Source: Desulfobacteraceae bacterium (GTDB taxonomy: Bacteria > Desulfobacterota > Syntrophobacteria > Syntrophobacterales > Syntrophobacteraceae). From it: a DNA stretch of 39,164 nt. Shown here one piece after another: positions 4,526-38,353 of this stretch (its first letter is position 1; each line of letters opens with the position of its first letter). The stretch lies in assembly GCA_021372055.1 (NCBI GenBank), contig JAJFVB010000103.1, forward strand, positions 1 through 39,164, in the 5' to 3' direction. The notes beneath the pieces were generated by a model that saw only the letters and a list, made by a program, of their open reading frames with translations, did not search any database and was not told the origin of the DNA. The position numbers were made by a program, and so were the translations under genes.

Positions 4526-4623
4526 GCGGACCTCTTCGGATTCTTCGCGCCGCGCTGGCGGCCCTTGCATGACGATATGCTCTCCCACTTTCCACAATGA
4601 AACGAATACGGGAAGGAAAACGG

Positions 4624-5291: not shown

Positions 5292-5365
5292 CCACATGCC
5301 CGGCCGCGTCGAATCGCGCTGCGGTTGAGCGGCAGTTCGCCGGGGCGGAAAGGGATGATGGTGCG

Positions 5366-6250: not shown

Positions 6251-6253
6251 TCC

Positions 6254-6604: not shown

Positions 6605-6695
6605 TACCAATGAGCGTTCAAGATAATGCCAGGCTTTCAGACCGTGGGGAGCCTGCTCCCCACACCCCACACGCAGCTGCGCTGCTCATTTTGGC
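6601..6695 (+). repeat. Palindromic repeat, copy A
   Basis: About 95 bases running from CTGATACCAATGAGCGTTC to TCATTTTGGC. It holds a perfect hairpin GTGGGGAGCCTGCTCCCCAC (6644-6663) and a second hairpin GCAGC-TGC-GCTGC (6673-6685). Its ends form an imperfect inverted repeat (CCAATGAGC against GCTCATTTTGG). It fills the gap between the M-like and L-like genes and stops 23 bases before the L-like start. It matches copy C at roughly nine bases in ten. Confidence 0.85.
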
Positions 6696-6717
6696 CTGAA
6701 AAGAATGCGAGGACCCC

Positions 6718-7329: not shown

Positions 7330-7367
7330 GAGAACTTTCGCTTTTGCGCGGGCCAAAGGAGAAGCCG

Positions 7368-7787
7368 ATGAGCGGAATGCTTCCGGAATTCCGGTATACG
7401 GATCTGCTTGGAAAGGACTTCGCCTACGGGGGCAGGGGCCCCGGCGCCTACGATTGCTACGGGCTCGTGATCGAGACCCGCAAGCGCGTGGGACTGCCCG
7501 TGCCCCTTCATTATGTTTCGACCGACACCCCCGAGGCGATTCACGGTTCCATTGAAGACGCAAAGCTCTCATCGAGCTTCAGAGCGCTTCGGGAACCCAC
7601 GCCATTTTGCCTCGTAACCTTCCGGCTCCACCCGAGATTCACCACCCACATCGGCATGGTGCTCCGGGACTGCAACCGCTTCATCCATATTCTCCCCCGG
7701 ATGCGCGTGGGCGTCGAGCGGTTGGACTCCCCCTGCTGGAGGCACCGGATCACCGGTTTCTGGGAGACCGGTTGCGCGGAGCCCTGA
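7368..7787 (+). CDS. NlpC/P60-like tail peptidase, lambda K-like
   Basis: A 139-residue NlpC/P60-type cysteine peptidase. The catalytic Cys lies in PGAYDCYGLV (about residue 28) and the catalytic His is probably in RFTTHIGMVL (about residue 96). Tail-associated members cut host peptidoglycan during DNA entry. The start is ATG 7368, with AAAGGAGAAG just upstream; an earlier in-frame start at 7206 would overlap the L-like gene by over 120 bases and adds unrelated sequence. Its stop codon TGA lies at the start of palindromic repeat B, the same geometry as at the M-like gene. Confidence 0.85.
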   Translation: MSGMLPEFRYTDLLGKDFAYGGRGPGAYDCYGLVIETRKRVGLPVPLHYVSTDTPEAIHGSIEDAKLSSSFRALREPTPFCLVTFRLHPRFTTHIGMVLRDCNRFIHILPRMRVGVERLDSPCWRHRITGFWETGCAEP

Positions 7788-7886
7788 TACCAATGAGCGT
7801 TCAAGATGATACCAAGCTTTAAGACCGTGGGGAGCCTGCTTCCCCCGCTCTTTTCCATCAGTTCCACCTTGAACGCAATTTGGCAT
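7784..7886 (+). repeat. Palindromic repeat, copy B
   Basis: The left half (7784-7845) matches copies A and C, including CTGATACCAATGAGCGTTCA and GTGGGGAGCCTGCT. The right half diverges but ends with a mirror of the left end: GCGTTCAAG (7797-7805) against CTTGAACGC (7868-7876), and CCAA against TTTGG. The element is therefore bounded by imperfect terminal inverted repeats of about 20 bases. The central hairpin is damaged by one inserted base (CTTCCCCC). It separates the K-like gene from J. Confidence 0.75.
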
Positions 7887-7915
7887 GAAACCTCAACGAG
7901 AGGAGCAGGATAACA

Positions 7916-22748: not shown

Positions 22749-22825
22749 TTCCCGATGACCGGCGGACGGACGCCTTCACACGGCGGCGGCCGCTATTGCT
22801 CCAACCAGATATCCGGAAGCGCCAA

Positions 22826-24157
22826 ATGAAAAAGAAAACCTGGCTCGGTCTTTTTGTTCTGATCTTCTTTTCAATCCTCCCCCAGGCACGGTGTGCGGCA
22901 CTGCCCGCAACGGAGAGGGTGGTGCTGGAAAACGGGCTCACCCTGATCCATTTCCGCGACGCAACCATCCCGGCCGTTTCGCTCGAACTGCTCGTGGCCG
23001 CAGGCTCCTGGCGGGACCCTGAAAAACAAAAGGGACTGGCAAACCTTACTGCGAAATCGCTCCTGCTCGGGAGCCGGAATCTTACCTACGACCAGATCAA
23101 CGGCACCGTCGATTACCTCGGCGCGCAACTCGATGTGGAATGCGGAAAAGACTTCGCGAGGCTGGGGATGCAAATCCTCAAGAAGGAACTGGACGCCGGA
23201 GTGGATCTCGTTACGGAGCTTCTGATCAACCCGGTTTTCCCCCCGGCTGAGGTGACAAGGGAAAAAACAAATATTACCGGCAAGCTGCGTGCTATGGAAG
23301 ACAACCCCGCAGACCTTGCGAACCGGGCCTTCGAAAGAGCTCTGTTTCTGAACAGCCCTTACGCGAGCGATGCCGAAGGAACCGAAGCATCGCTTGCCGG
23401 CATCGGGCCGGCGGATCTGGCGGCATTCTACGGCTCCTTCTACCATCCTTCGAATACCGTTCTTGTGGTCGGCGGCGACATTACGATGGAGGAGGTGAAG
23501 TCCCGCATCGTTCCCGGGTTTCTCAAGTGGAAAGCGGCCAAGGCGCCCGAGACGGTCTTCAAGCCGGAGTTCGCCGCCGGGAAGACGATCGTCAAGATCG
23601 ACCGGCCCATTTCCCAGGCAAGCATCGTCATCGGAAATCCCGGACTTGTTCGCGCGGATAAGGACTACTATGCGTTTTCCGTGCTGAACCAGATACTCGG
23701 TTCCGGAAACCTCTCCAGCAGGCTTATGGTCGAGGTAAGGGAGAAAAAGGGGCTGGCCTATTCGATTCAAAGCGTGATGCTTTCGCGGAAGCATGCCGGA
23801 TCTTTCAGGATTTTTCTCCAGACCAAAAATGCGACCGCCGGGCAGGCCGTGGATCTTGCGGTAAAGGAGATGAAACGGATGCAAAATGAGCCCGTTTCCG
23901 AAGAGGAACTCAAGAGGGCGAAGAGTTATCTGATCGGGAATTTCCCGCTGAGATACGGCGCCACGCAGCAGGACTATGCGAAATTCCTTGCCCAGGTGGA
24001 ATACTACGGTCTCGGGCTCGACTACCCCGGCAAATACGCGTCTCTCATAAACGCGGTAACGCCGCAGGACCTTCTGCGAGTGGCAGGGGCCTACCTGCAG
24101 CCCGAGCGGAATGTCCTCGTGGTGGTAGGCGATGCCAAAGACGTTCAATTGCAGTAG
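22826..24157 (+). CDS. M16 peptidase-like partner lacking the zinc motif
   Basis: A 443-residue M16B homologue with a signal peptide (TWLGLFVLIFFSILPQARC). At the position of HxxEH it has GLANLTAKSLLLGS, so it cannot bind the catalytic zinc. The C-terminal domain keeps GSGNLSSRLMVEVREKKGLA and SYLIGNFPLRYGATQQ, containing the Arg and Tyr that in paired M16 enzymes help hold the substrate for the catalytic subunit. Seventy-seven bases separate it from the catalytic gene. Start ATG 22826 (MKKK) is preferred over 22796 because the signal peptide then begins with its Lys run and GGAAG lies just upstream. Confidence 0.88.
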   Translation: MKKKTWLGLFVLIFFSILPQARCAALPATERVVLENGLTLIHFRDATIPAVSLELLVAAGSWRDPEKQKGLANLTAKSLLLGSRNLTYDQINGTVDYLGAQLDVECGKDFARLGMQILKKELDAGVDLVTELLINPVFPPAEVTREKTNITGKLRAMEDNPADLANRAFERALFLNSPYASDAEGTEASLAGIGPADLAAFYGSFYHPSNTVLVVGGDITMEEVKSRIVPGFLKWKAAKAPETVFKPEFAAGKTIVKIDRPISQASIVIGNPGLVRADKDYYAFSVLNQILGSGNLSSRLMVEVREKKGLAYSIQSVMLSRKHAGSFRIFLQTKNATAGQAVDLAVKEMKRMQNEPVSEEELKRAKSYLIGNFPLRYGATQQDYAKFLAQVEYYGLGLDYPGKYASLINAVTPQDLLRVAGAYLQPERNVLVVVGDAKDVQLQ

Positions 24158-24335: not shown

Positions 24336-27296
24336 ATGCCGGACCTTCGTCGTCGAGACCTGCTCAAACTGTTCGGGGCCGGTGGAACAAGCGCTATCCT
24401 GGCCGGCTGCGGCGAACCGGCGCGTCACCTCATTCCCTATGTGAACCCTCCGGAAGATCTGGTTCCCGGAAAAGCGACCTATTATGCGACGACATGCAGG
24501 GAGTGCCCCGCGGGCTGCGGAATGCTTGCGAAGAACCGTGACGGCCGCATAATCAAGGTCGAGGGCAATCCTGTTCATCCCATCAGCGGCGGCAAGCTCT
24601 GCATGCGCGGGCAGGCTTCGCTGCACGGCCTCTACAATCCGGACCGCTTCCCCGGTCCCATGGTGCGGGACGGTTCGGGCAAGCTCCGGCCGACGACCTG
24701 GGCAAATGGCGAGACAATCCTCTCCGAAGCTCTCGCCGAGATCGCCAAAAAGGGCGGAACCGGCCGCATTGCGGTGGTTTCCGACCTGATCACGGGGTCT
24801 TTGGCCGACCTGTTCGGGTTGTGGCTTGCGCAGACCGGCCAAAAGGGCGTCCACGTTATCTATGAACCGCTTGCCTACGAGCCTCTGCGGGCCGCGAACC
24901 GTATCGTTTTCGGAGAGGATTCGGTCCCGACCTACCGGTTGGACGATCTGGATTTCCTGATCTCCTTCAACGCCGGGTTTCTGGAAACATGGATATCCAA
25001 TCTTGAGTTTTCCCGCCAGTTCGGGGACTTTCATCCGATTCGGGAGAACGGGAAGAACAAGTTCGTCTTTGTCGGGCCGCGCCTTTCCATGACGGCAAAT
25101 AACGCCGACCTGTGGATCCGCACGCGCCCCGGCATGGAATACGCGGTGGCGCTCGGGATGATCCGGGCGATACTCGACGGTGACCTTGCCCGCGATCTCG
25201 GCGACTCCCGAAAGGCGACGCTTGCCGGTGCGACCTCCGACTGGCCCGTCGAGAGGGCGGCTTCCGCAGCCGGTTGCGATCCAGGCCTGATCCGCGCGGC
25301 CGCCGCCGCTTTTGCCCGGGCATCCAGTCCCCTGGCCATCGCCGAGGGGCTCTGCTTTTCCGTTCCCAATGCAACCGAAACGGCGGTTGCGGCAAATCTT
25401 TTGACGACGGTCAAACCCGCCGGACTGAAAGCGATCGATTTCGGCCGCGCTTCTTCCTGTTCGCAGGCGGCCCCGGCCCAGTCGATGAAACTCCTCGCCG
25501 AGCGCATGCGGGCCGGGGAGGTCGATTTGCTCCTCGTCTACATGGCCAACCCGGTGTTTTCGCTTCCCCGCGCGTGGGATTTCGCCGGGGCGATGAAATC
25601 CGTCCGGACGGTCGTGAGCCTATCTCCCGCGATTGACGAAACATCTTCCCTGGCAGGCCTTGTCTTGCCGACACATTATTCTTTCGAATCCTGGGGAGAT
25701 TACTCGCCCCGATCCGGCATCACGGGTTTTTTGCAGCCGGTTATGGGCCCGATTTTCGATACGCGCCATGCCGGAGACATCCTCATCGCAACGGGCAAAA
25801 AAGCCGGGAAGGAAGGTTCTTTCCCCTTTCGGGATTTCCAGGCGGCGATGCAGGCCTACTGGAGGAGATCCTGGAAGGAGTCGGGAGGAACCGGCAGCTT
25901 CGATGCGTTCTGGCTGGACGCGCTGGAAAAGGGCGGCTGCTGGCCCGACCGGCCTACCGCGAAGGGGGCCCGGCCCGCTTCCTCCTTTTCCTTTGCCTTC
26001 CCGCCTCCCCCGGCCGAGGCGGCGGACGGCTTGCCCCTTGTCATCTACCCGACGGTGCAGTTTTTCGACGGCCGGATGGCCAATCACATGTGGGTCCAGG
26101 AAATCCCCGATCCCATGACGATGACCGCATGGGGCGGCTGGATCGAGATCCACCCCGATACCGCCGGGAAAATGGGACTGAAAAAGGGCGACCTGGTCAC
26201 GGTGAAGACGGAATCCGGCGGTATCGAGATACCGGTTCTGCCCATCTTCACGGTCCCCGAGGGGACGGCGGCAATTCCCGTCGGACAGGGTCACACGAAT
26301 TTCGGCAGGTATGCCGAAAACCTTCCGGCCAATCCCTTCAATCTGCTGGCGCCGGAGGTGGACCCGGCAACGGGGGGGCTCCTCCGCGCGCCGTTAAGCG
26401 GCGGCATTGCGGGGACGGGGCGAAGCTTTGAAATCGCAAACACCGATGGGAGCTTCTTCCAAATGGGCCGGGATTTCTGGCACACCGTTACTCTCAAGGA
26501 GCGCAACCACCTGGCGGAAGCGGGCGAGAAGCCCGAGATCCGCTATCCTCTCCCGAGCGGGTACGAGAAGGAGAGGGACTTCTACGCTCCTCACGGCCAC
26601 AAGGACTACCGGTGGTGCATGGTCGTGGACATGGACCGGTGCATCGGGTGCAGCGCCTGCGTGGCCGGGTGCTACGCGGAAAACAACGTGGCCGTTGTCG
26701 GAAGAAAGCAGGTCCTCATGGGACGGGAGATGTCCTGGATCCGCGTGCAGCGCTACTTTGACGAAAAAACGCGGCTCGCCCGCTGGCATATCAATATGTG
26801 CCAGCACTGCGACAACGCCCCGTGCGAATATGTCTGCCCCGTTTTTGCGCCCCACCACAACGCGGAAGGGCTCAACACGCAGATCTACAACCGGTGCTTC
26901 GGCACGCGGTTCTGCTCGCAAAACGATCCCTACAAGGTCCGGCGCTTCAATTTCTACACCTATACCAGGCCCTGGCCGCTCAAATGGCAGCTCAACCCCG
27001 ACGTTCTCGTCAGGCAGAAAGGGGTCATGGAGAAGTGCTCCTTTTGCGTGCACCGCATAATCGAGGCAAAAATCGAGGCAAGAAACCGGGGCCGCAAGGT
27101 GAAGGACGGCGATTTCACGACCGCGTGCGCCCAGACATGCCCGACCGGTGCGCTGGTGTTCGGCAGCCTTCTGGACCCGGACAGCAGGGTGTCCCGGCTG
27201 ATAAACGATGTCCGCGCCTACCAGGCGCTTGCCGAGCTGAATACAAAGCCGGCCGTGATTTATCTCAAACGGGTGACACAGGAGATCGAAGCCTGA
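24336..27296 (+). CDS. actB: Alternative complex III subunit B (molybdopterin-oxidoreductase-like plus iron-sulfur)
   Basis: A 986-residue ActB. A twin-arginine motif (RRRDLLKLFGAG) is followed by a possible lipobox (AILAGC). Residues 45-700 resemble molybdopterin oxidoreductases and retain CRECPAGC and KLCMRG. Residues 750-986 carry ferredoxin motifs: CIGCSACVAGC (about 768), CQHCDNAPCEYVC (about 824), RCFGTRFCSQND (about 855) and CSFC with CAQTCPTG. In the third, Asp stands where the final Cys is expected, fitting a [3Fe-4S] cluster. It passes electrons from quinol to the cytochrome c subunits at the periplasmic face. First gene of the cluster. Confidence 0.92.
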   Translation: MPDLRRRDLLKLFGAGGTSAILAGCGEPARHLIPYVNPPEDLVPGKATYYATTCRECPAGCGMLAKNRDGRIIKVEGNPVHPISGGKLCMRGQASLHGLYNPDRFPGPMVRDGSGKLRPTTWANGETILSEALAEIAKKGGTGRIAVVSDLITGSLADLFGLWLAQTGQKGVHVIYEPLAYEPLRAANRIVFGEDSVPTYRLDDLDFLISFNAGFLETWISNLEFSRQFGDFHPIRENGKNKFVFVGPRLSMTANNADLWIRTRPGMEYAVALGMIRAILDGDLARDLGDSRKATLAGATSDWPVERAASAAGCDPGLIRAAAAAFARASSPLAIAEGLCFSVPNATETAVAANLLTTVKPAGLKAIDFGRASSCSQAAPAQSMKLLAERMRAGEVDLLLVYMANPVFSLPRAWDFAGAMKSVRTVVSLSPAIDETSSLAGLVLPTHYSFESWGDYSPRSGITGFLQPVMGPIFDTRHAGDILIATGKKAGKEGSFPFRDFQAAMQAYWRRSWKESGGTGSFDAFWLDALEKGGCWPDRPTAKGARPASSFSFAFPPPPAEAADGLPLVIYPTVQFFDGRMANHMWVQEIPDPMTMTAWGGWIEIHPDTAGKMGLKKGDLVTVKTESGGIEIPVLPIFTVPEGTAAIPVGQGHTNFGRYAENLPANPFNLLAPEVDPATGGLLRAPLSGGIAGTGRSFEIANTDGSFFQMGRDFWHTVTLKERNHLAEAGEKPEIRYPLPSGYEKERDFYAPHGHKDYRWCMVVDMDRCIGCSACVAGCYAENNVAVVGRKQVLMGREMSWIRVQRYFDEKTRLARWHINMCQHCDNAPCEYVCPVFAPHHNAEGLNTQIYNRCFGTRFCSQNDPYKVRRFNFYTYTRPWPLKWQLNPDVLVRQKGVMEKCSFCVHRIIEAKIEARNRGRKVKDGDFTTACAQTCPTGALVFGSLLDPDSRVSRLINDVRAYQALAELNTKPAVIYLKRVTQEIEA

Positions 27297-27376
27297 GGTG
27301 CCGCTTTTCCCGGGGCGCCCAAAGAGTTTCCTCAAGCACTCAGGCCGCTTCGTCGTTTTGTTGAGGATTGGACCGA

Positions 27377-28729
27377 ATGGAAGGCAATGCGCAAACGCAG
27401 GACTTTTCGGGCTACGCGGGGGTCGACCGGCAGATTGTCGGGGCAATGTGGAATCCGGGCCGGTTTTACTGGGTCTGTGTCGCTGTCGCGGGGCTGGGAG
27501 TCCTGGTCGGGGCCGTTTCCTGGGCATGGCAGATAGGGGTCGGGCTGGGTGTGGCCAACATAACCCATCCGCCCATGTGGGGAACCTACCTCATCAATTT
27601 CGTCTTCTGGGTCGGAATCGCGCACTCCGGCACGCTCATTTCCGCAATCCTGTTTCTCTTCAGGGCTTCCTGGCGGACCACCATATCAAGAGCCTCCGAG
27701 GCGATGACGATCTTCGCCGTCATGATAGCGGGGCTGTTCCCGCTGATCCACCTCGGCCGGGTCTGGGTCGTCTACTGGATTCTTCCCTACCCGAATGAAC
27801 GCAATCTCTGGCCGAACTTTCAATCTCCCCTCGTATTCGACGTCATCGCGATATCCACGTATCTGACGGTCAGCTTCCTTTTCTGGTACACGGGGATGAT
27901 ACCCGACCTCGCCGCGATCAGGGACCGCTCCACCGGTCTCAAGAACAGGATCTACGGCCTCCTGTCGCTCGGGTGGGCGGGTTCCGAGAAGTCCTGGAAG
28001 CACTACGGAACGGCGTATCTTTTCTTCGCGGCACTTGCCACTCCGCTCGTCATATCGGTCCACAGCGTCGTTTCCTGGGATTTTGCGCTCGGCATCACTC
28101 CGGGGTGGCACAGCACGATCTTCGCGCCCTATTTCGTCGCCGGAGCCATTCATTCCGGGCTCGCGATGGTCCTGCTGCTGCTCATACCGATGCGCAAGAT
28201 CTTCCATTTCGAAAACCTTCTGACGCTTCGCGTCCTCGAACAGATCGCCAAGACAATCATCCTGACCGGGCTCATCGTGGGCTATTCGTATGCCGTCGAG
28301 CACTTCCTGGCGTGGTACAGCGGGGATGCGGCCGAAAACGACCAGTTCCTGTTTCGCATGACCGGCTATTACTCCTGGGCCTTCTGGTTCATGATCATCG
28401 GCAACGCCGTCGTCCCCATCGTCCTTTTCTTCAAGCGGGTTCGCACGTGCATCCCGGCTCTATTCGCGGTTGCCCTCATTGTGCAGGCCGGGATGTGGTT
28501 TGAGCGGCTGGTGATCATCGTCGGTTCGCAGGCTCACGAATACGATCCCTATTCTTGGGGAATATACAAATACCCGTCCCTGATAGAGTGGGGAATCATG
28601 ATCGGGTCTTTTTCCCTCTTTTTCTTCCTGTTTCTTCTCTTTGCGAAGTTTCTGCCCACGATCTCCATGACGGAGGTGAAGGAAGCCATCGCTCACGGCG
28701 AAAGCAGCGGAGGTGGTCTCCATGGCTGA
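27377..28729 (+). CDS. actC: Alternative complex III subunit C (NrfD-like quinol-binding membrane protein)
   Basis: A 450-residue polytopic protein of the NrfD/PsrC family with about ten membrane helices. It carries the segment HPPMWGTYLINFVFWVGIAH typical of ActC, and GITPGWHSTIFAPYFVAGAI near the middle. It should bind menaquinol or ubiquinol and hand electrons to ActB. ATG 27377 has GAGGA upstream. The last eight bases overlap the actD start, which is a sign of translational coupling. Confidence 0.92.
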   Translation: MEGNAQTQDFSGYAGVDRQIVGAMWNPGRFYWVCVAVAGLGVLVGAVSWAWQIGVGLGVANITHPPMWGTYLINFVFWVGIAHSGTLISAILFLFRASWRTTISRASEAMTIFAVMIAGLFPLIHLGRVWVVYWILPYPNERNLWPNFQSPLVFDVIAISTYLTVSFLFWYTGMIPDLAAIRDRSTGLKNRIYGLLSLGWAGSEKSWKHYGTAYLFFAALATPLVISVHSVVSWDFALGITPGWHSTIFAPYFVAGAIHSGLAMVLLLLIPMRKIFHFENLLTLRVLEQIAKTIILTGLIVGYSYAVEHFLAWYSGDAAENDQFLFRMTGYYSWAFWFMIIGNAVVPIVLFFKRVRTCIPALFAVALIVQAGMWFERLVIIVGSQAHEYDPYSWGIYKYPSLIEWGIMIGSFSLFFFLFLLFAKFLPTISMTEVKEAIAHGESSGGGLHG

Positions 28730-29237
28730 CAGGATTGCCGTAATCGGGAGTTTTGCCGAACTCAGGGCCCTGGTGTCCGCGGTGGAAGCCTTCAGACGGG
28801 AGGCAATCGGCATCGCGACGGTCTATTCGCCTTTCCAGAGCAGCGAGATCCGCGAAGCGCTGGGGGAGCCGGCGCTTGGACCGGGTCGTTTTTTCACGCT
28901 TGCCGGAGGCGTCACGGGAATCCTGACAGGGGTCTTTCTTGCCTGGTACACGGCCGCGCAGTGGCGGTTCATCGTCGGGGGCAAGTACCCGATCCCCTAC
29001 GTCCCGACGGTGATCCCGGCTTTCGAGTTCTTCATCCTGCTATCGATCATCTTCACGCTCGGAGGCATGCTCTTCCTGAACCGCATGCCCAAGAAGCGTC
29101 TGCCGAAATATTACGACGGCCGGTTCAGCCAGGATCGGTTCGGGCTCGTGGTCTACTGCGCCGATTCGGACTGGGGGAAGATTTCCCGCATGATGACGGA
29201 TCTGGGGGCACAGGAGGTCCTCAAGGTTGAAGAGTGA
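28722..29237 (+). CDS. actD: Alternative complex III subunit D (DUF3341)
   Basis: A 171-residue protein of the DUF3341/ActD family. The first 55 residues are soluble (IAVIGSFAELRALVSAVEAF), followed by two membrane helices (about 62-82 and 100-120) with GGKYPIPYVPTVIPAFEF between them, and a short soluble C-terminus with DRFGLVVYC. It bridges subunits C and F in known complexes. ATG 28722 lies within the actC end with GCGGAGG upstream, and its own end overlaps the actF start by 11 bases. Confidence 0.92.
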   Translation: MADRIAVIGSFAELRALVSAVEAFRREAIGIATVYSPFQSSEIREALGEPALGPGRFFTLAGGVTGILTGVFLAWYTAAQWRFIVGGKYPIPYVPTVIPAFEFFILLSIIFTLGGMLFLNRMPKKRLPKYYDGRFSQDRFGLVVYCADSDWGKISRMMTDLGAQEVLKVEE

Positions 29238-30450
29238 AGTCTACAGGGATATCGAGCTTGCCGGAAAGACGGCGAACTGGGCGGCGGTGCAGAAAATCTC
29301 GTGCGCGCTGTTCCTGATCGGACTTGGCGCATTCCTCTACGGAATCTACTCTGGAGACACCCTGAGGGCCTGGACCGCATACCTTGTAAACTTTGTTTTC
29401 TGGACCGGTCTTGCCTTTGGAACCTTTCTGCTCTCACCCGTTCTCGTGGTCACCAACGCGTCCTGGGGCAGGTCGGTAAAGCGGATCGCCGAGTCCGTGG
29501 CGCTCTTTTTGCCCGCCACCTTCCTTCTTTTCTGGCCTCTTTTCGGAGCGCGCGAGACCCTGTTCTGGTGGGTGAGAAATCCCCACACCCACAAGGCCGC
29601 GTGGCTGAACACGCCCTTTTTCTTCGCGCGCGGGGGGATTGCGCTGTTCCTGCTGGCCCTGGTGGCCCTCTGCATTGTCAATCATTCCGTCCGGAGCGAT
29701 CTCGAATACATGCGCGGAGACGAGCGAAAGCTGACCGCCCGCGCGGGCGCCCAGGCAAAGCTCTCCCCGGCCTTCATCATCCTGTATGCGTTCATCCTCA
29801 CCCTTATCGCGTTCGACCTGATGATGGCTCTGGCGCCGGGATGGCACAGCACCCTTTTCGGCGCCTACTACTTCGTTATCTCGTTTTACTCCGGGCTGGC
29901 CGTGCTCATTGTCGTTTCGGCGCTCGCGGCGAAAAACCTCGGCATGTCGAAGCTGATCGGCAAGAAGCAGTTCCACGATCTCGGCAAGCTGCTGTTCGCT
30001 TTTTGCGTCGTCGGGGCGGATTTCTTTTATGTCCAGTTCCTGGTCATCTGGTACGGCAACAAGCCCGAGGAGACCCGCTACATGATCAGGCGGGTCATGT
30101 ACGACCCCTGGACGGCTTTGGCCTGGACCGTTTTGCTCGTTCTTTTCGTCGTGCCCTTTCTTCTCCTGCTGTTCCGGAGGCTGAAGATGAGGCCGGCGTT
30201 CATGATCGCGCTCTCGGCATGGATTTTGTGCGGCGCATGGCTGGAAAAGCTTCTCCTGATCTCCCCGTCGCTTCTGAGCGGCGAGCCGTTTCCGCTGGGC
30301 ATCCTCGAAGCGGCGATAACCCTTGGCTGGGGCGGCCTGTTCGCGTTTTGCATCGCGTGGTTCCTGCAAAGGTATCCCGTTGTGGCGGTTTCGGACCCCG
30401 TGGTGAGACGCGTTACCGAACCCGGAGAGGAAGCGGCGCGGGCGGTCTGA
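29227..30450 (+). CDS. actF: Alternative complex III subunit F (membrane protein)
   Basis: A 407-residue polytopic protein related to ActC, with about ten hydrophobic helices. Recognisable parts are AYLVNFVFWTGLAFGTFLLS and MALAPGWHSTLFGAYYFVIS, paralogous to segments of ActC. It is thought not to bind quinol productively in known complexes. The start TTG 29227 lies inside the actD end, with GGAGG at about 29215; no ATG is near. Gene order B-C-D-F follows the classical act order, with E moved to the far side of the oxidase genes. Confidence 0.9.
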   Translation: MKSEVYRDIELAGKTANWAAVQKISCALFLIGLGAFLYGIYSGDTLRAWTAYLVNFVFWTGLAFGTFLLSPVLVVTNASWGRSVKRIAESVALFLPATFLLFWPLFGARETLFWWVRNPHTHKAAWLNTPFFFARGGIALFLLALVALCIVNHSVRSDLEYMRGDERKLTARAGAQAKLSPAFIILYAFILTLIAFDLMMALAPGWHSTLFGAYYFVISFYSGLAVLIVVSALAAKNLGMSKLIGKKQFHDLGKLLFAFCVVGADFFYVQFLVIWYGNKPEETRYMIRRVMYDPWTALAWTVLLVLFVVPFLLLLFRRLKMRPAFMIALSAWILCGAWLEKLLLISPSLLSGEPFPLGILEAAITLGWGGLFAFCIAWFLQRYPVVAVSDPVVRRVTEPGEEAARAV

Positions 30451-30518: not shown

Positions 30519-31058
30519 ATGGCTGAAGGCAAGGACGCATTCCCGAAAAACCCGCTATCGTGGACACGTTGGCTGACCGTGCTCGCTCTGCTGACAGTTG
30601 CGGCGATGTATCTTTATTTCTTTTTCCCCGCGCGGGACATAGGACCGCGTCAGCCCGTCTCTTTCAGCCACCGGGTTCATGCGGGCGTCAAGCAGATCGA
30701 ATGCCGCTTTTGCCACTCTTACGTGGAAAGGTCCATGCACGCCGGTCTTCCCGAGGTGGAGAAGTGCTTTTTCTGCCACAACCATATCATTCCCACGCAC
30801 CCCGAGATCCTGAAGGAAAAACAATACCTGGAAGGCAAGAGGCCCGTTCCGTGGGTCCGGATCTTTTTCGTGCCCGATTTCGTCAAATTCAGGCACCAGC
30901 CTCACATCCAATGGGCGAAGGCCGACTGCGCGAAATGCCACGGGGATGTCCGGACAATGGACCGGCTGATCAATGTGAATTTCCAGATGAAATTCTGCAT
31001 CGACTGCCACAAGCAGAACAATGCGCAGCTTGACTGTTACCTGGGCTGCCATCACTGA
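30519..31058 (+). CDS. actA: Pentaheme cytochrome c, ActA-like
   Basis: A 179-residue membrane-anchored cytochrome with an N-terminal helix (WLTVLALLTVAAMYLYFFF). Five heme-binding motifs are visible: CRFCH, CFFCH, CAKCH, CIDCH and a CxxxCH-type CYLGCH at the C-terminus. Five hemes and one anchor match ActA of alternative complex III, which takes electrons from ActB. In the classical cluster actA comes first; here it sits after actF and directly before ccoN. Its last residues (CHH) end 30 bases before the oxidase gene. Confidence 0.85.
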   Translation: MAEGKDAFPKNPLSWTRWLTVLALLTVAAMYLYFFFPARDIGPRQPVSFSHRVHAGVKQIECRFCHSYVERSMHAGLPEVEKCFFCHNHIIPTHPEILKEKQYLEGKRPVPWVRIFFVPDFVKFRHQPHIQWAKADCAKCHGDVRTMDRLINVNFQMKFCIDCHKQNNAQLDCYLGCHH

Positions 31059-31088: not shown

Positions 31089-32486
31089 GTGCAATTGCTG
31101 AAGGTTGAGACAAACGGGACCGCAAAGCTTTTCTTGCTCGGTTCCGCCCTCTGGTTCGTGCTGGGAACGCTCGAAGGCCTGGTGTGCGCGACGCACATGG
31201 TGGCGCCGGACCTGCTGGGCGGCATCTCCTGGCTGGTATTCGGCAGGATACGGCCCATGCACACGACCACGATGATTTTCGGTTTCGTCGGATCGGCCCT
31301 GCTGGGCTGCGCCTGCTATATCATGCAGGAAGTGCTGAGAACCCCGCTCTGGAGCGAGCGGCTCGGCAAAGTCTCCCTGTGGGTCTGGAATCTCTCCATC
31401 GCCCTGGGCCTCATCACCCTGGACCTCGGATATTCGCAGGGCCGCGAATACGCAGAATGGATCTGGCCCGCCGACATCGGCATCCTGCTGGCCTTTGCCC
31501 TCATCTTCGTCAATTGCCTTCAGACTGCGATCAACCGGCGCGAAAAGATCATGTACGTTTCCTCCTGGTACATCTTCGCGGCGCTGATATACACCTGGCT
31601 GATCTACTTTTTCGGCAACGCGGTGTGGAACCCGGCCACGGGAGCGATTTTCGGAATGCCCGACGCGATCCTGGCATGGTTTTACGGACACGGGATCGTC
31701 GGCCTTTTCCTCACTCCGCTTGCCGTTGCGATCGCGTATTTCGTCGTGCCGAGAGTGGCGCGGGCTCCGCTCCACTCGCACACGCTCTCTCTCATAGGCT
31801 TCTGGACCATCCTGATCATCTATACCCACATCGGAACGCACCACCTCCTGCAAACGCCCGTTCCGACCTGGCTCAAGGTGCTGGCCGTAACGGGCAGCAT
31901 CGCTATGATAATCCCCGTCATGACGGTCCTTGGCAACCTGTGGCTTACGATGCGCGGCCGCCTGGGCTTTTTTCACCAGGACATCGGCGGCAGGTTCGTG
32001 ATGGCGGGCCTGCTCTGGTACATTCTCACCTGTTTGCAGGGGCCCATCCAGGCCCTGCCGGTCGTGCAGAAAGTCACGCATCTGAACAACTGGGTAATCG
32101 CGCATTCTCACATGGGCGTGTTCGGTTTTGCAGGCACGATAGCTCTGGGCGGTTTGTACTACATACTGCCCAGAATCACCGGGAAACCGATCTACTCCAT
32201 CCGGTTGGCCGACGTCCAGTACTGGCTTCTCCTGCTCGGGATGTCCGGCTTCTTCGCGGTGCTCACCGCCGGAGGGCTCGTCCAGGGCAACAGCTGGCTT
32301 AACGGGGAAACCGTGTACCGGACGGTTCCGATGGTCCATGTCTATTTTATCGTGCGAGCGGCGGTTGGCCTTCTTTTCGTCGGGGGGGCGCTCATAGGCG
32401 CTTATAACATCGTCCGGACGGTGCGGGGCGATCAGGCCCCGGCGGAAGAGCGGATGAGGCTGCAGGTGTACGGAGAAACGCCATGA
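31089..32486 (+). CDS. ccoN: cbb3-type cytochrome c oxidase subunit I
   Basis: A 465-residue heme-copper oxidase subunit I of cbb3 type, with about 12 membrane helices. The heme b and copper ligands are visible: RPMHTT near residue 57, YGHGIVG near 200, THIGTHH near 250, and HLNNWVIAHSHMG near 330-340. It reduces oxygen at the heme b3/CuB centre. GTG 31089 has AGAGG about eight bases upstream. Its stop overlaps the ccoO start (ATGA at 32483), so the oxidase genes are translationally coupled. Confidence 0.93.
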   Translation: MQLLKVETNGTAKLFLLGSALWFVLGTLEGLVCATHMVAPDLLGGISWLVFGRIRPMHTTTMIFGFVGSALLGCACYIMQEVLRTPLWSERLGKVSLWVWNLSIALGLITLDLGYSQGREYAEWIWPADIGILLAFALIFVNCLQTAINRREKIMYVSSWYIFAALIYTWLIYFFGNAVWNPATGAIFGMPDAILAWFYGHGIVGLFLTPLAVAIAYFVVPRVARAPLHSHTLSLIGFWTILIIYTHIGTHHLLQTPVPTWLKVLAVTGSIAMIIPVMTVLGNLWLTMRGRLGFFHQDIGGRFVMAGLLWYILTCLQGPIQALPVVQKVTHLNNWVIAHSHMGVFGFAGTIALGGLYYILPRITGKPIYSIRLADVQYWLLLLGMSGFFAVLTAGGLVQGNSWLNGETVYRTVPMVHVYFIVRAAVGLLFVGGALIGAYNIVRTVRGDQAPAEERMRLQVYGETP

Positions 32487-33433
32487 GGATGAACCCTTCG
32501 GTACTTGTCCTTGGAGGACTGCTCATATTCGCGCCCGTTCTCTTCATGCACGTTATCCTTCCCTGGCTGACGGTCGGAGGCGAACCTCCCTCGGAAATCC
32601 ACAGGGCGCGAACCACGATCGAGGACGAGGGGCGCTCCGTCTACGTGAACAACGGATGCACCTTCTGCCATACGCAGTTCATCCGGAACTTCGACTGGGG
32701 CGTTGGAGCGCAGAGGGTCGCCCACTCGGGCGACTACATCGCGGAGCAGCCGCACCTGCTGGGAACCGAGCGCACCGGCCCCGATCTTTCCCAGGAGGGG
32801 GGCGAACACCCGGACGACTGGCATGCGGCTCATTTCAGGAACCCCAGATTCGTCCGTCCCGAATCGATAATGCCCTCGTGGAACTTCTTCAGCGGGGCGG
32901 AGATGATCGCTCTTGTGGCCTACATGCAGAGTCTTGGCTACAAGATGGCCGACGACAGAACCGCGCGGCAGAAATACTGGAAGGACGAGGCTGTGGCGGC
33001 CTTCGAGTCCGGTCCGCAGAAGAACGTCGAATGGCTCCACGGCCACGTGCCCGAACCCTGGACCAAGCTGCCCAATCCCTACATGAGCTCCAGGCCGGGG
33101 CTGCTGCGGGGCCACCGTATCTATCAGACGCAGTGCATCGGATGCCATGGGCCGATCGGCGACGGCATGGGGCCGGCGCAGCCCTTCCTCTACCCTCCGC
33201 CCCTGAACTTCACGCTCCTGAAAGACCGGGGCATTACGGGCGGCATCCTCTATTACCAGATCATGAACGGGATCACGGGAACGGCCATGCCCTATTTCAA
33301 AAAAGACCTTGAATCGGAAAAGATCTGGGACGTCGGCAACTATGTCGCCGTGACCTTTATCGGCCGGACGGACGCGCACGCCGAACCGAGAGGAATCGAC
33401 GCATCCAACGAACCGGTGGAGAACGCAAAATGA
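32483..33433 (+). CDS. ccoO: cbb3 oxidase monoheme subunit fused to an extra cytochrome c domain
   Basis: A 316-residue protein. Residues 1-165 are CcoO: an N-terminal helix, then NNGCTFCHTQFIRN and ESIMPSWNFF. Residues 205-295 form a second cytochrome c domain with QTQCIGCHGPIGDG and the Met ligand in GTAMPYF. Typical CcoO is about 200 residues with one heme; the second domain resembles a heme domain of CcoP, which is otherwise absent from the cluster. The protein probably replaces both CcoO and part of CcoP. The stop overlaps the next start (33430). Confidence 0.9.
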   Translation: MRMNPSVLVLGGLLIFAPVLFMHVILPWLTVGGEPPSEIHRARTTIEDEGRSVYVNNGCTFCHTQFIRNFDWGVGAQRVAHSGDYIAEQPHLLGTERTGPDLSQEGGEHPDDWHAAHFRNPRFVRPESIMPSWNFFSGAEMIALVAYMQSLGYKMADDRTARQKYWKDEAVAAFESGPQKNVEWLHGHVPEPWTKLPNPYMSSRPGLLRGHRIYQTQCIGCHGPIGDGMGPAQPFLYPPPLNFTLLKDRGITGGILYYQIMNGITGTAMPYFKKDLESEKIWDVGNYVAVTFIGRTDAHAEPRGIDASNEPVENAK

Positions 33434-33705
33434 ATTATTACGCAGGGTGGCTCTTTCTTGTCGTGGCCAGTCTTTTGGTGAGCATCGCCGCGTTCATCTG
33501 GGGACTGCGCTCGGGGCAGTTCGCGGATCAGGACAGGGCGCGCTACCTGCCGCTTTCGAAGGACCTCCTCGACGAGCCTCTGGTTGCGGCGGGTTCCCGA
33601 AAGCGGAAAACAAACGCGGCCGTCCTGCTCCTGATCGTGCTCATGGCGCTTGCCGCGTTTGCCGCCGCACTGCTGATGAGCATCAAAGACCATCAAATCG
33701 GATAA
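33430..33705 (+). CDS. ccoS: CcoS-like oxidase assembly protein with an extra membrane helix
   Basis: A 91-residue protein. The first helix (GWLFLVVASLLVSIAAFIWG) is followed by LRSGQFADQDRARYLPL, matching the RSGQFDD signature of CcoS/FixS, which is needed for cofactor insertion into cbb3 oxidases. CcoS proteins are usually 45-70 residues with one helix; here a second hydrophobic helix (AVLLLIVLMALAAFAAALLM) is added. Start overlaps the end of the ccoO gene. Confidence 0.75.
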   Translation: MNYYAGWLFLVVASLLVSIAAFIWGLRSGQFADQDRARYLPLSKDLLDEPLVAAGSRKRKTNAAVLLLIVLMALAAFAAALLMSIKDHQIG

Positions 33706-33710
33706 GTGTT

Positions 33711-33974
33711 ATGAGATATTTTGACTGGTTGGATTTCCAGTACCTTATGGCGGCTCTTTTCGTGGGAGTCTCCGCCGTTATTCTGGCCTATGCCGCCTGG
33801 GCGGGATATTCAAGAAGATTGTCGCCGGGGCCGCATGACGACATCGAGGCATCGGATCCCAACGATTTCGAAGGCCACCCCATTGGACCTTTTCTCCTGC
33901 TGGTGTACATCATCATCCCGATGTGGTCCGTGTGCTACTTTTTGTACGTCTTGGCGACCGGCACGAACGTATAG
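33711..33974 (+). CDS. Small membrane protein resembling the CcoP membrane anchor
   Basis: An 87-residue protein with two hydrophobic helices (about 10-31 and 60-82). The stretch HDDIEASDPNDFEGHPIG leading into the second helix recalls the CcoP N-terminal anchor, where a short acidic segment precedes the helix. No heme motif is present. It may therefore be the CcoP anchor detached from its cytochrome domain, which here is fused to CcoO. That reading is inference; a CcoQ-type role is the alternative. Confidence 0.5.
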   Translation: MRYFDWLDFQYLMAALFVGVSAVILAYAAWAGYSRRLSPGPHDDIEASDPNDFEGHPIGPFLLLVYIIIPMWSVCYFLYVLATGTNV

Positions 33975-33991
33975 ATCCGGGGAGCGGGAAA

Positions 33992-34285
33992 ATGGCACTT
34001 TCGGGTGAAGAAGATTACGGTCCTGCCTTCACGTGGGGCATACTCGGCGCAATGGCGGCTGCCTTTCTCGCGTGGGGACTTCTGCTTTTTTTTACGATCG
34101 GCAACAAAGGACCGCTCGACTGGGATTTCAGCGTCATACCCGACATTCCGGGCGAATCGGCCTATTCGAGCTACAATCCCCAACTGCCCCGGGGCCGTGC
34201 GCCGTCGATCCTGCCGGCAACGCCCGACCCTCAGCACGTAATGGGGCCGCCGACGCAGTCCCAGATGGAGAGCCTTGCCAAATGA
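33992..34285 (+). CDS. Unknown single-helix protein in the oxidase/ACIII cluster
   Basis: A 97-residue protein I do not recognise. One membrane helix (AFLAWGLLLFFTIGN, about residues 23-37) is followed by a periplasmic-type, proline-rich tail of about 55 residues (SILPATPDPQHVMGPP). There are no Cys or heme motifs. GGGGAGCGGG lies upstream of ATG 33992, and the stop overlaps the ActE-like start (ATGA, 34282), which implies coupled translation. It could be a small accessory subunit holding the oxidase and complex III together. Confidence 0.65.
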   Translation: MALSGEEDYGPAFTWGILGAMAAAFLAWGLLLFFTIGNKGPLDWDFSVIPDIPGESAYSSYNPQLPRGRAPSILPATPDPQHVMGPPTQSQMESLAK

Positions 34286-34797
34286 AGAAGAAACGGAAAC
34301 TCGGCTTGGTGACCGTGAGGCTTTTATCCTTCTGCCTTCTGGCGGCCGTTGTTGCCACTGCCGTGGCGGGGTGCAACTACGGGAAGATGAGAGATGACGA
34401 GGCGGCTCAGTCCTATAATGACACATTCCCTCAGATGCCTCAGAGGACTCTTCCGGCCGAAGGCGGGATTTTCGCCGAAAGGCAGGCCGACCTCTCAAAG
34501 CTCGAAAACGCCTTGCCTCCAAACGCGGAAGTGATCGCACTGGGGAGCGAGCGGTACCGCTTCTACTGCGGCCAGTGCCACGGTATGCGTGCGGACGGAA
34601 ATGGAACGGTGGGGCAGAGCTTCGCGCCGCTTCCCGCGAACCTCAAGAGCGAAGCGGTGCAGGAACAGAGCGACGGCGAGCTTTTCTACAAGATCCGTTT
34701 CGGATTCATGCGGCATCCGCCGCTGTTTTCGACAGCATCCGAGGAAGAGACCTGGGCGGTGATCCGCTACCTCAGATCGCTCGTCGATTATTCCTGA
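34282..34797 (+). CDS. actE: Lipoprotein monoheme cytochrome c, ActE-like
   Basis: A 171-residue exported lipoprotein: a Lys-rich start, hydrophobic core, and lipobox AVAGCNYG with Cys near residue 31. One heme site CGQCHG lies near residue 95, with a likely Met ligand in FGFMRHPPLF. Length, lipobox and single heme match ActE of alternative complex III. It stands outside the act block, behind the oxidase genes, a position suited to passing electrons from complex III to the oxidase. Confidence 0.85.
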   Translation: MKKKRKLGLVTVRLLSFCLLAAVVATAVAGCNYGKMRDDEAAQSYNDTFPQMPQRTLPAEGGIFAERQADLSKLENALPPNAEVIALGSERYRFYCGQCHGMRADGNGTVGQSFAPLPANLKSEAVQEQSDGELFYKIRFGFMRHPPLFSTASEEETWAVIRYLRSLVDYS

Positions 34798-34852: not shown

Positions 34853-35587
34853 ATGTTCGAGATCCTGGCGCCCTTCACGGTCGGACTTTTCGGCAGTCTG
34901 CACTGTCTCGGCATGTGCGGGCCGCTCGTCCTGGCCTGCTCCATCCATTGCCGCCCGGCTACTGGGGACGGTTCCCGCCTGAGCCGTTTGCGGGGAGTGA
35001 TATCCCGTCAACTCGCGTTCCACTTGGGCCGGATCGCGACCTACGGGATTGCCGGGGCTGCGGTTGCCGCGCTTTTCGAATCCCTCGAGTTCAAGAGCTT
35101 TTCGATGCAGTACCGCAGCGGCTTGGTGCTGCTGAGCGGGCTTTTTCTCCTGGCCATCGGTCTTATCATTCTCAAAGCCCTGCCCGTTCCGGGATTTCTT
35201 GCGAGACTGGCCGCGCCGGCGGGGGCGGTATTCGGGAAAAGGTTCGGGCGGATGGCGGCTTCAACCAATCCGGCGTCAAAGTTTGTCATCGGCCTGGCCG
35301 CGGGGCTGCTCCCGTGCGGGCTCACCTGGGCCATGCTCGTGGCTGCCGCCGCCACGATGGCCCCGCTGAAGGGATTCCTCACGATGGTGATCTTCGGGGC
35401 GGGCACAATCCCGCTTCTCCTGGCGGGCGGCGTGGGAGCCTCGTTTCTGTGCGCCTGGACACGGCTTCTGGGGGAACGGGCGGCGGCGGTCTCCGTGATG
35501 ATCATGGGCGCTCTGCTCGTCTATAGAGGCGGAGCCGCTCTGTTTGGAGCAGTCCACTCCCTGCGGCATTCAGGAATGATGCAGTAG
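34853..35587 (+). CDS. SafE/TauE-like membrane protein (oxidase copper maturation)
   Basis: A 244-residue polytopic protein of the sulfite exporter TauE/SafE superfamily, in the branch commonly found beside cbb3 genes. About six helices are seen. Helix 1 carries SLHCLGMCGPLVLAC, whose His, Cys and Met residues could bind copper, and helix 4 has GLAAGLLPCGLTWAML with a second conserved Cys. Relatives act in cbb3 oxidase biogenesis as copper-related membrane proteins. GGAGAGGCGG precedes ATG 34853. Downstream, repeat C separates it from ccoI. Confidence 0.8.
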   Translation: MFEILAPFTVGLFGSLHCLGMCGPLVLACSIHCRPATGDGSRLSRLRGVISRQLAFHLGRIATYGIAGAAVAALFESLEFKSFSMQYRSGLVLLSGLFLLAIGLIILKALPVPGFLARLAAPAGAVFGKRFGRMAASTNPASKFVIGLAAGLLPCGLTWAMLVAAAATMAPLKGFLTMVIFGAGTIPLLLAGGVGASFLCAWTRLLGERAAAVSVMIMGALLVYRGGAALFGAVHSLRHSGMMQ

Positions 35588-35620
35588 CGGACCGTCCATG
35601 AAGAACCGATGGAAAAGTGC

Positions 35621-35749
35621 GCGCTTGCGGCTTGGCCAACGGCCCGCCGCAAGCGCCGAAATGAGCAGCGCAGCTGCGTATGGGGTGTGGGGAGCAGGCT
35701 CCCCACGGTCTGAAAGCTTGGTATCCTCTTGAACGCTCATTCGTATCAG
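35621..35749 (-). repeat. Palindromic repeat, copy C (inverted relative to A and B)
   Basis: On the minus strand it begins CTGATACGAATGAGCGTTC and runs through GTGGGGAGCCTGCTCCCCAC (35687-35706) and GCAGC-TGC-GCTGC (35665-35677) to TCATTTCGGC. Beyond that is an extra perfect 11-bp stem, GCGCTTGCGGC (35621-35631) with GCCGCAAGCGC (35646-35656). The end base pairs covary relative to copy A. It fills the gap between the SafE-like gene and ccoI, ending 18 bases before the ccoI start. Confidence 0.85.
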
Positions 35750-35767: not shown

Positions 35768-38353
35768 TTGGCCGAGTCTTTTTCCGATGATTCATGCCGC
35801 CTTTGCGGACTCCCGGCGGGTCGCGCCAATATTTCCCTGCACATTGCGGGAGAGACCGTCCGGTTCTGCTGCCTTGGCTGCATGTATGTTTTCCAGATCC
35901 TTCACAACAGCCCGGAGGGGCTGCCCGAGGATTGCCGGGATACGGACCTCTACCGGGCCTGCGTCGCATCCGGTCTGATCCCCTCGGATTCCCGGCCGGA
36001 AGCGGACCCGGAGCCGGCCAGACCTCCCGGGGGCCCGGGAAGCCGTTCGGGCGGCATGGACGCAATCCGGGACGGGCTCTCGAAAGAGCTTTCGGTGAGA
36101 ATCGAGGGGATGTGGTGCACCGCCTGTTCCTGGCTCATCGAACAGATCGTGCGCAAGCTGGACGGAGTGGTCTGCGCGAGCATCTTTTTTTTCTCCGACA
36201 TCGCCCGCATCACCTACATGCCCCACCGGACCGATCCCCGCACCATCATCGAAGCCATATCCCGCCTGGGCTACCGCGCGGCCCCCGTCGACGCGGGACC
36301 GGAATCGGCCGGGAGCGGAAGACTCGCCGTCCGGCTCGGGATCTCAGCGATACTCAGCATCAATATCATGATGATTTCCTTTGCCCTCTATTATGGATTT
36401 TTCGAAGACATCGGGAGGGATGGAGCCGCCTTTTTCTCGTATCCGCTCTGGGCCATGGCAACCCCGGTTGTTTTTTACGGCGGATGGCCCATTCTCCGGA
36501 AGGCATTTTGGGGCCTCCGGCACTTTGTGCCCACGATGGATCTCCTGATCGCCGCCGGCGCTCTTTCGGCGTACCTCTACAGCGTTTTCGCCATGCTTCG
36601 CGGCAGCCTCCACGTCTATTTCGACACCGCGTCGATGCTCATGACCCTGGTGTTGCTCGGAAAGTTCATCGAGCTGCGGGCAAGGGAGAAGATCTCCGCC
36701 GGGATAACCACCCTGTTTCATGCCGTGGAAAGCAAGGTGCGCATCGTGAGCAGGGGCAAAGAGGTCTGGACCGCGTCGGAAGAAGTGCGGCCCGGCGATT
36801 CGGTTGTGGTCTTCCCCGGTGAACGCGTCCCGGTGGACGGGCGCATCGTCTCCGGAAGCGCCGTTCTGGACGAATCAATCGTCACGGGCGAATCCCGTCC
36901 GGCCGCGAAGGCAACGGGCGCGCAAGTCCCGGCGGGAGCGCTGTTCCTGGGCGGGGACGCGCGCTTTGAAGCGATGCGGCCCGGAAACGAGAGTTCGCTA
37001 AGCCAGATGGTGAGCCTGATACAGGAGGCTCTGGCCGCAAAAAACGGCCTGGAGCTCTTCGCGGACCGGCTCATGCGCATGCTTGTTCCTCTGGTGCTGC
37101 TTACCGCCGCGGGCGTTACGGGTTTCCTGCTTCTGGCCTCCGCCGGTCCTGAGGAGGCGATCTTCCGGGGGCTTACGGTCCTGGTGATTACCTGCCCGTG
37201 CGCGCTCGGGATAGCGACTCCTCTGTCAAGAGTTGCCGCGATTTCCAGGGCCCGCGAATCCGGCATCCTCATCCGTAACGCCAGCGCCCTCGAGAGGGCC
37301 GGGGAACTCGGGGCGTTTGTTTTCGACAAGACCGGGACCCTTACCGAGGGGAAATACACCCTGCGTGAAATCATAGTGCCGGATGGAGACGAGACGGAAG
37401 CATTGCGGCGGATCGCATCCGCCGAGGCAAAATCGGACCACTTCCTTGCCGGAGAGATCGTGCGGGCGGCCCGCGCCCGGAATATCGAACTGCATGAGGC
37501 GCTCTCCTTCGAGCCGCTGGCGGGACTGGGAATCACGGCGCTTTTCGAGGACGGCGAAGTTGTCGCGGGAAACCGCCCCCTTATGGCCCGATTCGGGCTG
37601 TCTCTTCCGCCGGAACTGGAGAAAAAAGCGGGGGAAGCAGAAGCATCCGGTATGACATCGGTCTATTTCGCCTGGAGCGGCGCAATCCGGGGGCTTCTCA
37701 TCTTCGGCGACAAGGTGCGGCCAGGAGCCGCTGAGGCCGTATCGCGGCTCAAATCCGACGGCCTTGAGGTGTGGATTGTTTCGGGCGACTCAGAGGCGAC
37801 CACCCGCGCGGTCGCAAAGGAACTCGGGATAGAGAACTGCGCCGGACAGGCCATCCCGGCCGACAAGGCCGGAATTATAAAAGGCCTCCAGGCGCGGGGA
37901 ATCCGGGTTGCCATGGCGGGCGACGGAATAAACGACGCAGCCGCGCTCGCGCAGTCGGACATCGGCATATCCGTGGGAACCGGAGCGAATCTCGTGCGCG
38001 AATGTTCCGACGCGGCGGTATTCGGAGAGGACCCCGTACGCATTGCCGAAACTATCGGGCTGGCGCGATTTTCCTCTAAAATTGCAAGGCAGAACCTTTT
38101 CTTTGCTTTTTTCTATAATGTTGTGGGAATACCCCTGGCGATCGCGGGAGCGCTCACGCCGCTGATTGCGGCCTCGGCCATGTTTGCAAGCAGCGCTACC
38201 GTGATCTGCAATACCCTGCGAATAACCGGATTTCGCAGAACAGGTCCGAACTTGTCTGCAATGTCCCCGTCCCTGCCCCCCGCTTTGCCTTCCGCCCCCG
38301 CAGGGGGGCTTGACAAACCCCGCAGCCGGTCTAATCAGTTTCAACCAGGATAG
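35768..38353 (+). CDS. ccoI: Copper-transporting P-type ATPase, CcoI/FixI type
   Basis: An 861-residue P1B-type ATPase. The N-terminal metal domain has CRLCGLP and FCCLGCMYVF, followed by an HMA domain with GMWCTACSWLIE (about residue 120). The transport core has VTGES, CPCALGIATPL, the phosphorylation motif DKTGT and GDGINDAAALAQSDIGIS. The usual HP motif reads SDHFLAGE, so Pro is replaced by Phe. It exports copper for the oxidase CuB site. TTG 35768 is preceded by GAGGCGGTGA. It is last in the cluster, after repeat C. Confidence 0.92.
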   Translation: MAESFSDDSCRLCGLPAGRANISLHIAGETVRFCCLGCMYVFQILHNSPEGLPEDCRDTDLYRACVASGLIPSDSRPEADPEPARPPGGPGSRSGGMDAIRDGLSKELSVRIEGMWCTACSWLIEQIVRKLDGVVCASIFFFSDIARITYMPHRTDPRTIIEAISRLGYRAAPVDAGPESAGSGRLAVRLGISAILSINIMMISFALYYGFFEDIGRDGAAFFSYPLWAMATPVVFYGGWPILRKAFWGLRHFVPTMDLLIAAGALSAYLYSVFAMLRGSLHVYFDTASMLMTLVLLGKFIELRAREKISAGITTLFHAVESKVRIVSRGKEVWTASEEVRPGDSVVVFPGERVPVDGRIVSGSAVLDESIVTGESRPAAKATGAQVPAGALFLGGDARFEAMRPGNESSLSQMVSLIQEALAAKNGLELFADRLMRMLVPLVLLTAAGVTGFLLLASAGPEEAIFRGLTVLVITCPCALGIATPLSRVAAISRARESGILIRNASALERAGELGAFVFDKTGTLTEGKYTLREIIVPDGDETEALRRIASAEAKSDHFLAGEIVRAARARNIELHEALSFEPLAGLGITALFEDGEVVAGNRPLMARFGLSLPPELEKKAGEAEASGMTSVYFAWSGAIRGLLIFGDKVRPGAAEAVSRLKSDGLEVWIVSGDSEATTRAVAKELGIENCAGQAIPADKAGIIKGLQARGIRVAMAGDGINDAAALAQSDIGISVGTGANLVRECSDAAVFGEDPVRIAETIGLARFSSKIARQNLFFAFFYNVVGIPLAIAGALTPLIAASAMFASSATVICNTLRITGFRRTGPNLSAMSPSLPPALPSAPAGGLDKPRSRSNQFQPG

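Follow-up and report, generated by a model that had tools for sequence, protein, structure and literature searches.

The question raised by this locus is whether the genes of an alternative complex III (ACIII) and those of a C-family heme-copper oxidase, which lie interleaved in one block, encode a dedicated quinol:O2 unit, and what has become of the heme-bearing CcoP subunit of canonical cbb3 oxidases. The block lies in contig JAJFVB010000103.1 of a Desulfobacteraceae bacterium (phylum Desulfobacterota, assembly GCA_021372055.1); the whole stretch analysed, of 39,164 nucleotides, is called the window. Translation and family searches of the window gave the order actB-C-D-F-A, ccoN, a ccoO with two heme motifs, a CcoS-like gene, genes for an 87- and a 97-residue protein, and actE (Table 1). 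This is the order claimed in a preliminary description of the same DNA, with the ACIII genes bracketing the oxidase genes (actB to actA 5′ of ccoN, actE at the 3′ end). The overlapping junctions that it had claimed were also found: there are five, of 4 bases each at CcoN/CcoO, CcoO/CcoS and 97-residue protein/ActE, and of 17 and 11 bases at ActC/ActD and ActD/ActF, the CcoN-CcoO overlap of 4 bases being present in all 11 relatives measured. The gene content suggests that the locus probably encodes a menaquinol:O2 oxidoreductase, which would consist of a complete ACIII and a divergent C-family oxidase, with an electron path through ActE and CcoO, a CcoP-derived anchor and a linker of 97 residues.

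We compared the locus with other genomes carrying adjacent act and cco genes, as the preliminary description had proposed. Relatives of the fused CcoO are encoded at 177 loci of named genomes, and the best 80, nearly all from Desulfobacterota, were examined. All 11 genes stand in the window's order in 50 of these, and 28 hold an unbroken part of it, most ending at contig ends, which cut about 25 of the 80 loci. Since 50 of 80 loci have the complete order, and most of the rest follow it up to the end of their contig, it is far beyond chance. All relatives from the same family with enough contig share the block, the anchor being unrecognised in three. Among the 80 loci, L093 and L107 miss nothing but a recognisable anchor. 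Loss of the anchor from these two was considered and rejected, as an 83-residue open reading frame with two predicted helices occupies its slot in L182, on the same contig as L093. The locus is real and phylum-wide rather than a local oddity, and it is functional-looking.

The two complexes also occur together. Across 395 genomes from the phylum, the scores of CcoN fell into two groups, of at least 630 bits (21 genomes) and of at most 328 bits, and ActC of the present type, set at 660 bits or more, was found in 20. Both were present, and adjoining, in 19 of the 20 ActC genomes and 19 of the 21 CcoN genomes (Fisher p ~4e-29, without correction for shared ancestry). The two CcoN genomes lacking a full ActC match have a broken actC in one case and a contig end in the other; G160, a candidate for ActC without CcoN, was rejected, as its contig ends inside actA. 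In the phylum's other ACIII clusters, the genes run A-B-C-D-(E)-F, and the oxidase gene that follows, where present, is a COX1 of another type, which fits the published ACIII-caa3 superoperons (PMC8407424, PMC6431628). Because of the conserved synteny and the co-occurrence of ActC and CcoN, a dedicated quinol:O2 unit is the best reading of the locus, a point on which the preliminary description is supported; the complexes are passed on as one unit and are probably expressed as one. Carriers of the block include named Desulforhabdus, Desulfoferrobacter, Desulfosarcina and Desulfatitalea, which opens the question to testing.

The ACIII part is complete, with all six act subunits present and ActA, B, C and E matching ACIII structures. 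ActB is a fusion of the molybdoenzyme-like and iron-sulfur parts, as the match to 6f0k_B spans residues 5-982, and the two NrfD-like subunits (ActC and ActF) are accompanied by ActD, as ACIII requires. ActA has four CxxCH motifs and a C-terminal CxxxCH (DCYLGCHH here), whereas ActA of the other ACIII clusters in the phylum has five CxxCH; alignment showed the CxxxCH to be conserved in relatives, and it likely binds a fifth heme, though this would be unusual. ActE has its heme motif and a lipoprotein-like start. The position of its Met ligand is taken by His in the window and, across 89 aligned rows, by Gln in 56, His in at least 25 and Met in 1.

CcoN was aligned with the Pseudomonas stutzeri subunit (3mk7_A), whose numbering we use. 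The heme and Cu ligands and the helix-VII tyrosine (H60, H207, Y251, H257, H258, H345 and H347), as well as the K-channel residues Y223, S240 and Y317, are invariant in 96 CcoN rows, not all of which come from distinct genomes. With 286.4 bits, the protein lies below the NCBIfam ccoN cut-off of 583.15. Gln in place of Glu323 was considered as the loss of a key residue, and rejected, as 18 of 28 other C-family CcoN, mostly from the same phylum, share it. A maximum-likelihood tree groups the act-linked CcoN in a single clade (100/100), apart from the canonical CcoN and those of the oxidases that we take to be Geobacter-type (loci L150-L164), most of which have a heme-bearing CcoP. The nearest group (93/86) consists of CcoN from Sinorhizobium meliloti pSymA, Komagataeibacter and two Desulfobacterota; it is likewise without a recognisable heme-bearing CcoP, and two of its members are long branches.

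The assembly (4.66 Mb, 93.8% complete) contains dsrA and two bd oxidases, and no cytochrome b of a bc1 complex was found in it. Its other COX1 genes are only two quinol nitric oxide (NO) reductases, and CcoN is the genome's sole heme-copper O2 reductase. The preliminary description had held CcoP to be missing, and no CcoP was indeed found in this 93.8%-complete assembly, where PF13442 matched nothing but CcoO, ActE and, on contig C226, an unrelated monoheme cytochrome.

CcoO has 316 residues and two CxxCH motifs, at 59-63 and 218-222, and the likely Met ligands of its hemes, M130 and M269, are nearly invariant in relatives. Profile alignments set its C-terminal heme domain against five other sets of cytochromes: it scored 93.7 bits with ActE of the same operons, 79.1 with the domain fused to Geobacter-type CcoO and 59.9 with Geobacter-type CcoP, against 32.9 and 30.5 with the canonical CcoP domains, whose profiles hold three sequences each and give rough scores. 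Because ActE is the nearest profile and the canonical CcoP domains lie far lower, the fused domain is ActE-like and does not look like a fragment of CcoP, with the reservation that cytochrome domains this short give no firm origin. It also weakly matches ActE of Flavobacterium johnsoniae (6btm_E). The CcoO of three relatives had been flagged for an internal TGA; selenocysteine was rejected, as the aligned proteins lack one and the codons are terminal stops.

The 87-residue protein is, by its profile, the membrane part of CcoP without a heme. A profile of its family (37 rows) matches the CcoP chains 8snh_G (7.4e-5), 8smr_G (2.7e-4) and 3mk7_C (4.3e-4), colinear over both helices; FixP_N was matched in 3 of 11 members, and many relatives carry DGIEExDAPxP, corresponding to DGIEEYDNPLP of CcoP, from which the window's own copy has drifted. 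Its structure model has two helices only. These chains are the next three matches in the Protein Data Bank (PDB) after 8qag_A (sc-CC-6-95), which was rejected as a compositional match, since its name and repeats mark it as a designed helical protein. The 97-residue protein, described as unknown at the outset, gave no match in family searches; it was found in 93 loci, and W, DxP, S and QH are conserved in its tail. The idea that the QH supplies ActE with a heme ligand in trans found no support, as Met does not reappear at the ActE ligand position in L093 and L107, which lack the QH.

Two alternatives concern the oxidase itself. The preliminary description had suggested that CcoP was split, one heme domain being fused to CcoO and the anchor left alone, which is a question of origin, separate from the mechanism. 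One part of this stands, in that the small protein is truly CcoP-anchor-like and a heme domain is truly fused to CcoO. However, that domain is closest to ActE, and the single sequences outside the clade that match it best come from ActE of other ACIII clusters and from the CcoO-fused domains of other C-family oxidases, those of Komagataeibacter and S. meliloti; moreover, Geobacter-type oxidases of the same phylum have a fused CcoO while their CcoP retains its heme, so that a split is improbable. That CcoN might reduce NO instead of O2 is suggested by its position on the C-family/NO reductase side of the superfamily and by the two quinol NO reductases of the genome. Yet it keeps His207, Tyr251, S240 and Y317, whereas in both of those enzymes position 207 is Glu and position 251 Gly/Ala, and the copper P-type ATPase 3′ of the block is consistent with CuB; we regard NO reduction by CcoN as very remote. 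The genes for these NO reductase-like proteins, of 771 and 767 residues, lie on contigs C266 and C145 (L002 and L003).

The other alternative concerns the link between the complexes, which could be co-expressed and yet separate, with a soluble cytochrome c as the electron shuttle between ActE and the heme of CcoO. ACIII reduces soluble cytochrome c or high-potential iron-sulfur protein in other species (PMC5928083), and at least one further small monoheme cytochrome is encoded in the genome, on C226. On the other hand, an ActE-like domain fused to CcoO and the loss of the heme-bearing CcoP agree with electrons entering at a fixed point, the stability of the linkage throughout the phylum is unusual, and the only cytochrome c genes in the unit are those of ActA, ActE and CcoO. 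A soluble shuttle is therefore rather unlikely. Several points nevertheless weigh against a dedicated quinol:O2 oxidoreductase. Conserved synteny can mean co-regulation only, and ActE is dispensable in F. johnsoniae (PMC8552683). As ActE lacks the Met ligand of Rhodothermus marinus ActE, whose heme has His/Met ligands, its potential may differ from that of R. marinus ActE, and its place in the path is uncertain. The AlphaFold model of CcoO is poor (predicted local distance difference test score, pLDDT, 58), and its heme geometry was left unused. Three loci clearly break the unit: actB is absent from L101, L078 lacks every gene that should follow ccoO, and no act genes lie upstream in L115, whose scaffold contains an N gap.

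In the menaquinol:O2 oxidoreductase that we favour, menaquinol would be oxidised at ActC/ActB, and electrons would pass from the hemes of ActA to ActE and on to the ActE-like heme domain of CcoO (Met269). From this C-terminal heme they would reach the N-terminal heme of CcoO (Met130), then heme b and finally heme b3-CuB of CcoN, where O2 would be reduced. CcoP, without its heme, would survive only as the two-helix anchor, its task of electron input having moved to ActE and to the heme domain fused to CcoO. The 97-residue protein, with one helix and a gene that overlaps actE, would be the likeliest linker, a role that is a guess. A physical ACIII-oxidase supercomplex is plausible; direct transfer from ACIII to caa3 via ActE is known in R. 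marinus, and ACIII is found in superoperons elsewhere (PMC5928083 and PMC8407424, respectively). We infer the electron path, the supercomplex and the linker role from gene content and order, conservation and residues. As a tentative extension, an obligate respirasome of ACIII and C-family oxidase, with ACIII as its only input by way of ActE and the ActE-like CcoO domain, no CcoP hemes and the 97-residue protein as a dedicated linker, might be the ancestral apparatus for O2 respiration in many sulfate reducers.

Table 1. Genes of the act-cco block and its 3′ neighbours (window positions; values after structure or family names are E-values unless marked as bits)
Feature	Position	Strand	Description and matches
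ActB	24336..27296	+	Fused molybdopterin-enzyme-like and 4Fe-4S subunit of ACIII; PDB matches 6lod_B 2.8e-135, 6f0k_B 6.7e-126
ActC	27368..28729	+	NrfD-like quinol-site membrane subunit; 6f0k_C 6.7e-130
ActD	28713..29237	+	PF11821 1.6e-35
ActF	29227..30450	+	Second NrfD-like membrane subunit; NrfD 2.4e-7; position kept in relatives
ActA	30519..31058	+	Multiheme cytochrome c; 8k9e_A 2.3e-28, 6f0k_A 2.2e-25
CcoN	31089..32486	+	Catalytic subunit, divergent C-family heme-copper oxidase; PF00115 7e-78; 9g6b_A 3e-72, 3mk7_A 4.2e-70
CcoO with second, C-terminal cytochrome c domain	32483..33433	+	FixO 1.5e-28, Cytochrome_CBB3 2.8e-15
CcoS-like protein, extra second helix	33430..33705	+	FixS 2.2e-7; NCBIfam ccoS 26.6 bits (cut-off 28.35)
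87-residue heme-less CcoP membrane anchor, two helices	33711..33974	+	Family profile matches to CcoP chains
97-residue protein, one N-terminal helix and tail	33992..34285	+	No family match
ActE	34282..34797	+	Monoheme cytochrome c, lipoprotein-like start; 6lod_E 1.2e-10, 6f0k_E 2.9e-10
SafE/TauE-like membrane protein	34853..35587	+	3′ of the block in part of the relatives (synteny); putative role in oxidase maturation
CcoI/CopA-like copper P-type ATPase	35768..38353	+	TIGR01511 above cut-off; 3′ of ActE in many relatives

Of the neighbouring genes, the copper P-type ATPase is the probable source of copper for CcoN. Two M16-type peptidase-like genes (21360-24157) lie directly 5′ of actB in the same direction and are not found beside the act genes of relatives. 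A dispersed repeat of ~125 bp, possibly a small mobile element, occurs between the SafE and copper ATPase genes (35600-35745) and in the prophage region (6601-6695 and 7784-7844), with ~40 copies at least in the genome and 89-98% identity among the matches listed. The prophage region carries structural genes at 176-13645 (PHROGs), for a head protease, a major head protein, a head-tail adaptor and tail proteins, together with a tape-measure fragment and a tail fibre J of 1909 residues.

Sulfate reducers are treated as anaerobes, in which bd oxidases and rubredoxin systems are given most of the credit for reducing O2. An operon of ACIII and a C-family, high-affinity-type oxidase that is conserved in order across the phylum points to a dedicated, proton-motive O2 pathway in these bacteria. 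It would be a further way, beside ACIII-aa3 and ACIII-caa3, of coupling a quinol-oxidising complex directly to a terminal oxidase, and natural cbb3-like enzymes without CcoP hemes are useful for studying the role of the CcoP membrane part by itself. No description of an ACIII-cbb3 operon in sulfate reducers was found in the open PubMed Central papers, the sole literature covered.

Judged by its genes, the locus is a further form of the known ACIII-oxidase superoperon, with a C-family oxidase inside. In the ACIII-caa3 superoperons and supercomplexes of R. marinus and Acidobacteria, and probably at the Desulfobacterota loci L192 and L195, complete act genes likewise adjoin heme-copper oxidase genes, and direct quinol:O2 transfer has been shown or proposed for such systems; there, however, an A-family oxidase follows the act genes A-B-C-D-(E)-F, whereas here a C-family oxidase lies between actA and actE. 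In the ACIII-aa3 supercomplex of F. johnsoniae, as here, the usual entry heme is replaced by a cytochrome c domain that a partner subunit carries as a fusion, but there ActA bears this domain and the oxidase is of the aa3 type, while here CcoO bears it. QrcABCD menaquinone reductase has related subunits (ActA/QrcA and ActB/QrcBC); its QrcB and QrcC are separate, ActD, ActE and ActF are absent, and it works toward menaquinone, unlike the ACIII here.

On the oxidase side, the canonical cbb3 of P. stutzeri (3mk7) shares the CcoN ligands, tyrosine and K-channel residues and the N-terminal heme domain of CcoO, but it has a heme-bearing CcoP and a mono-heme CcoO, whereas the present locus has a heme-less anchor only and a CcoO with two CxxCH. 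The Geobacter-type oxidase (NCBIfam NF011054, CcoO-cytochrome c fusion; L150-L163) is similar in its fused CcoO (~290 residues) and in Gln for Glu323, and differs in its monoheme CcoP with a DGI motif and its separate CcoN clade; none was seen inside an act operon. At L150-L164, most oxidases have a diheme CcoO and a monoheme, one-helix CcoP. Closest in the CcoN tree are the oxidases of S. meliloti pSymA (L188), Komagataeibacter (L189) and L166/L167, which form the sister group, lack a heme-bearing CcoP and have a fused or separate heme domain like that of CcoO here. Heme-less, anchor-like small proteins are present at L166, L167 and L188, and S. meliloti has SafE and CcoI neighbours, as here; in contrast to the present locus, this group has no act genes, and its long branches make its placement uncertain.

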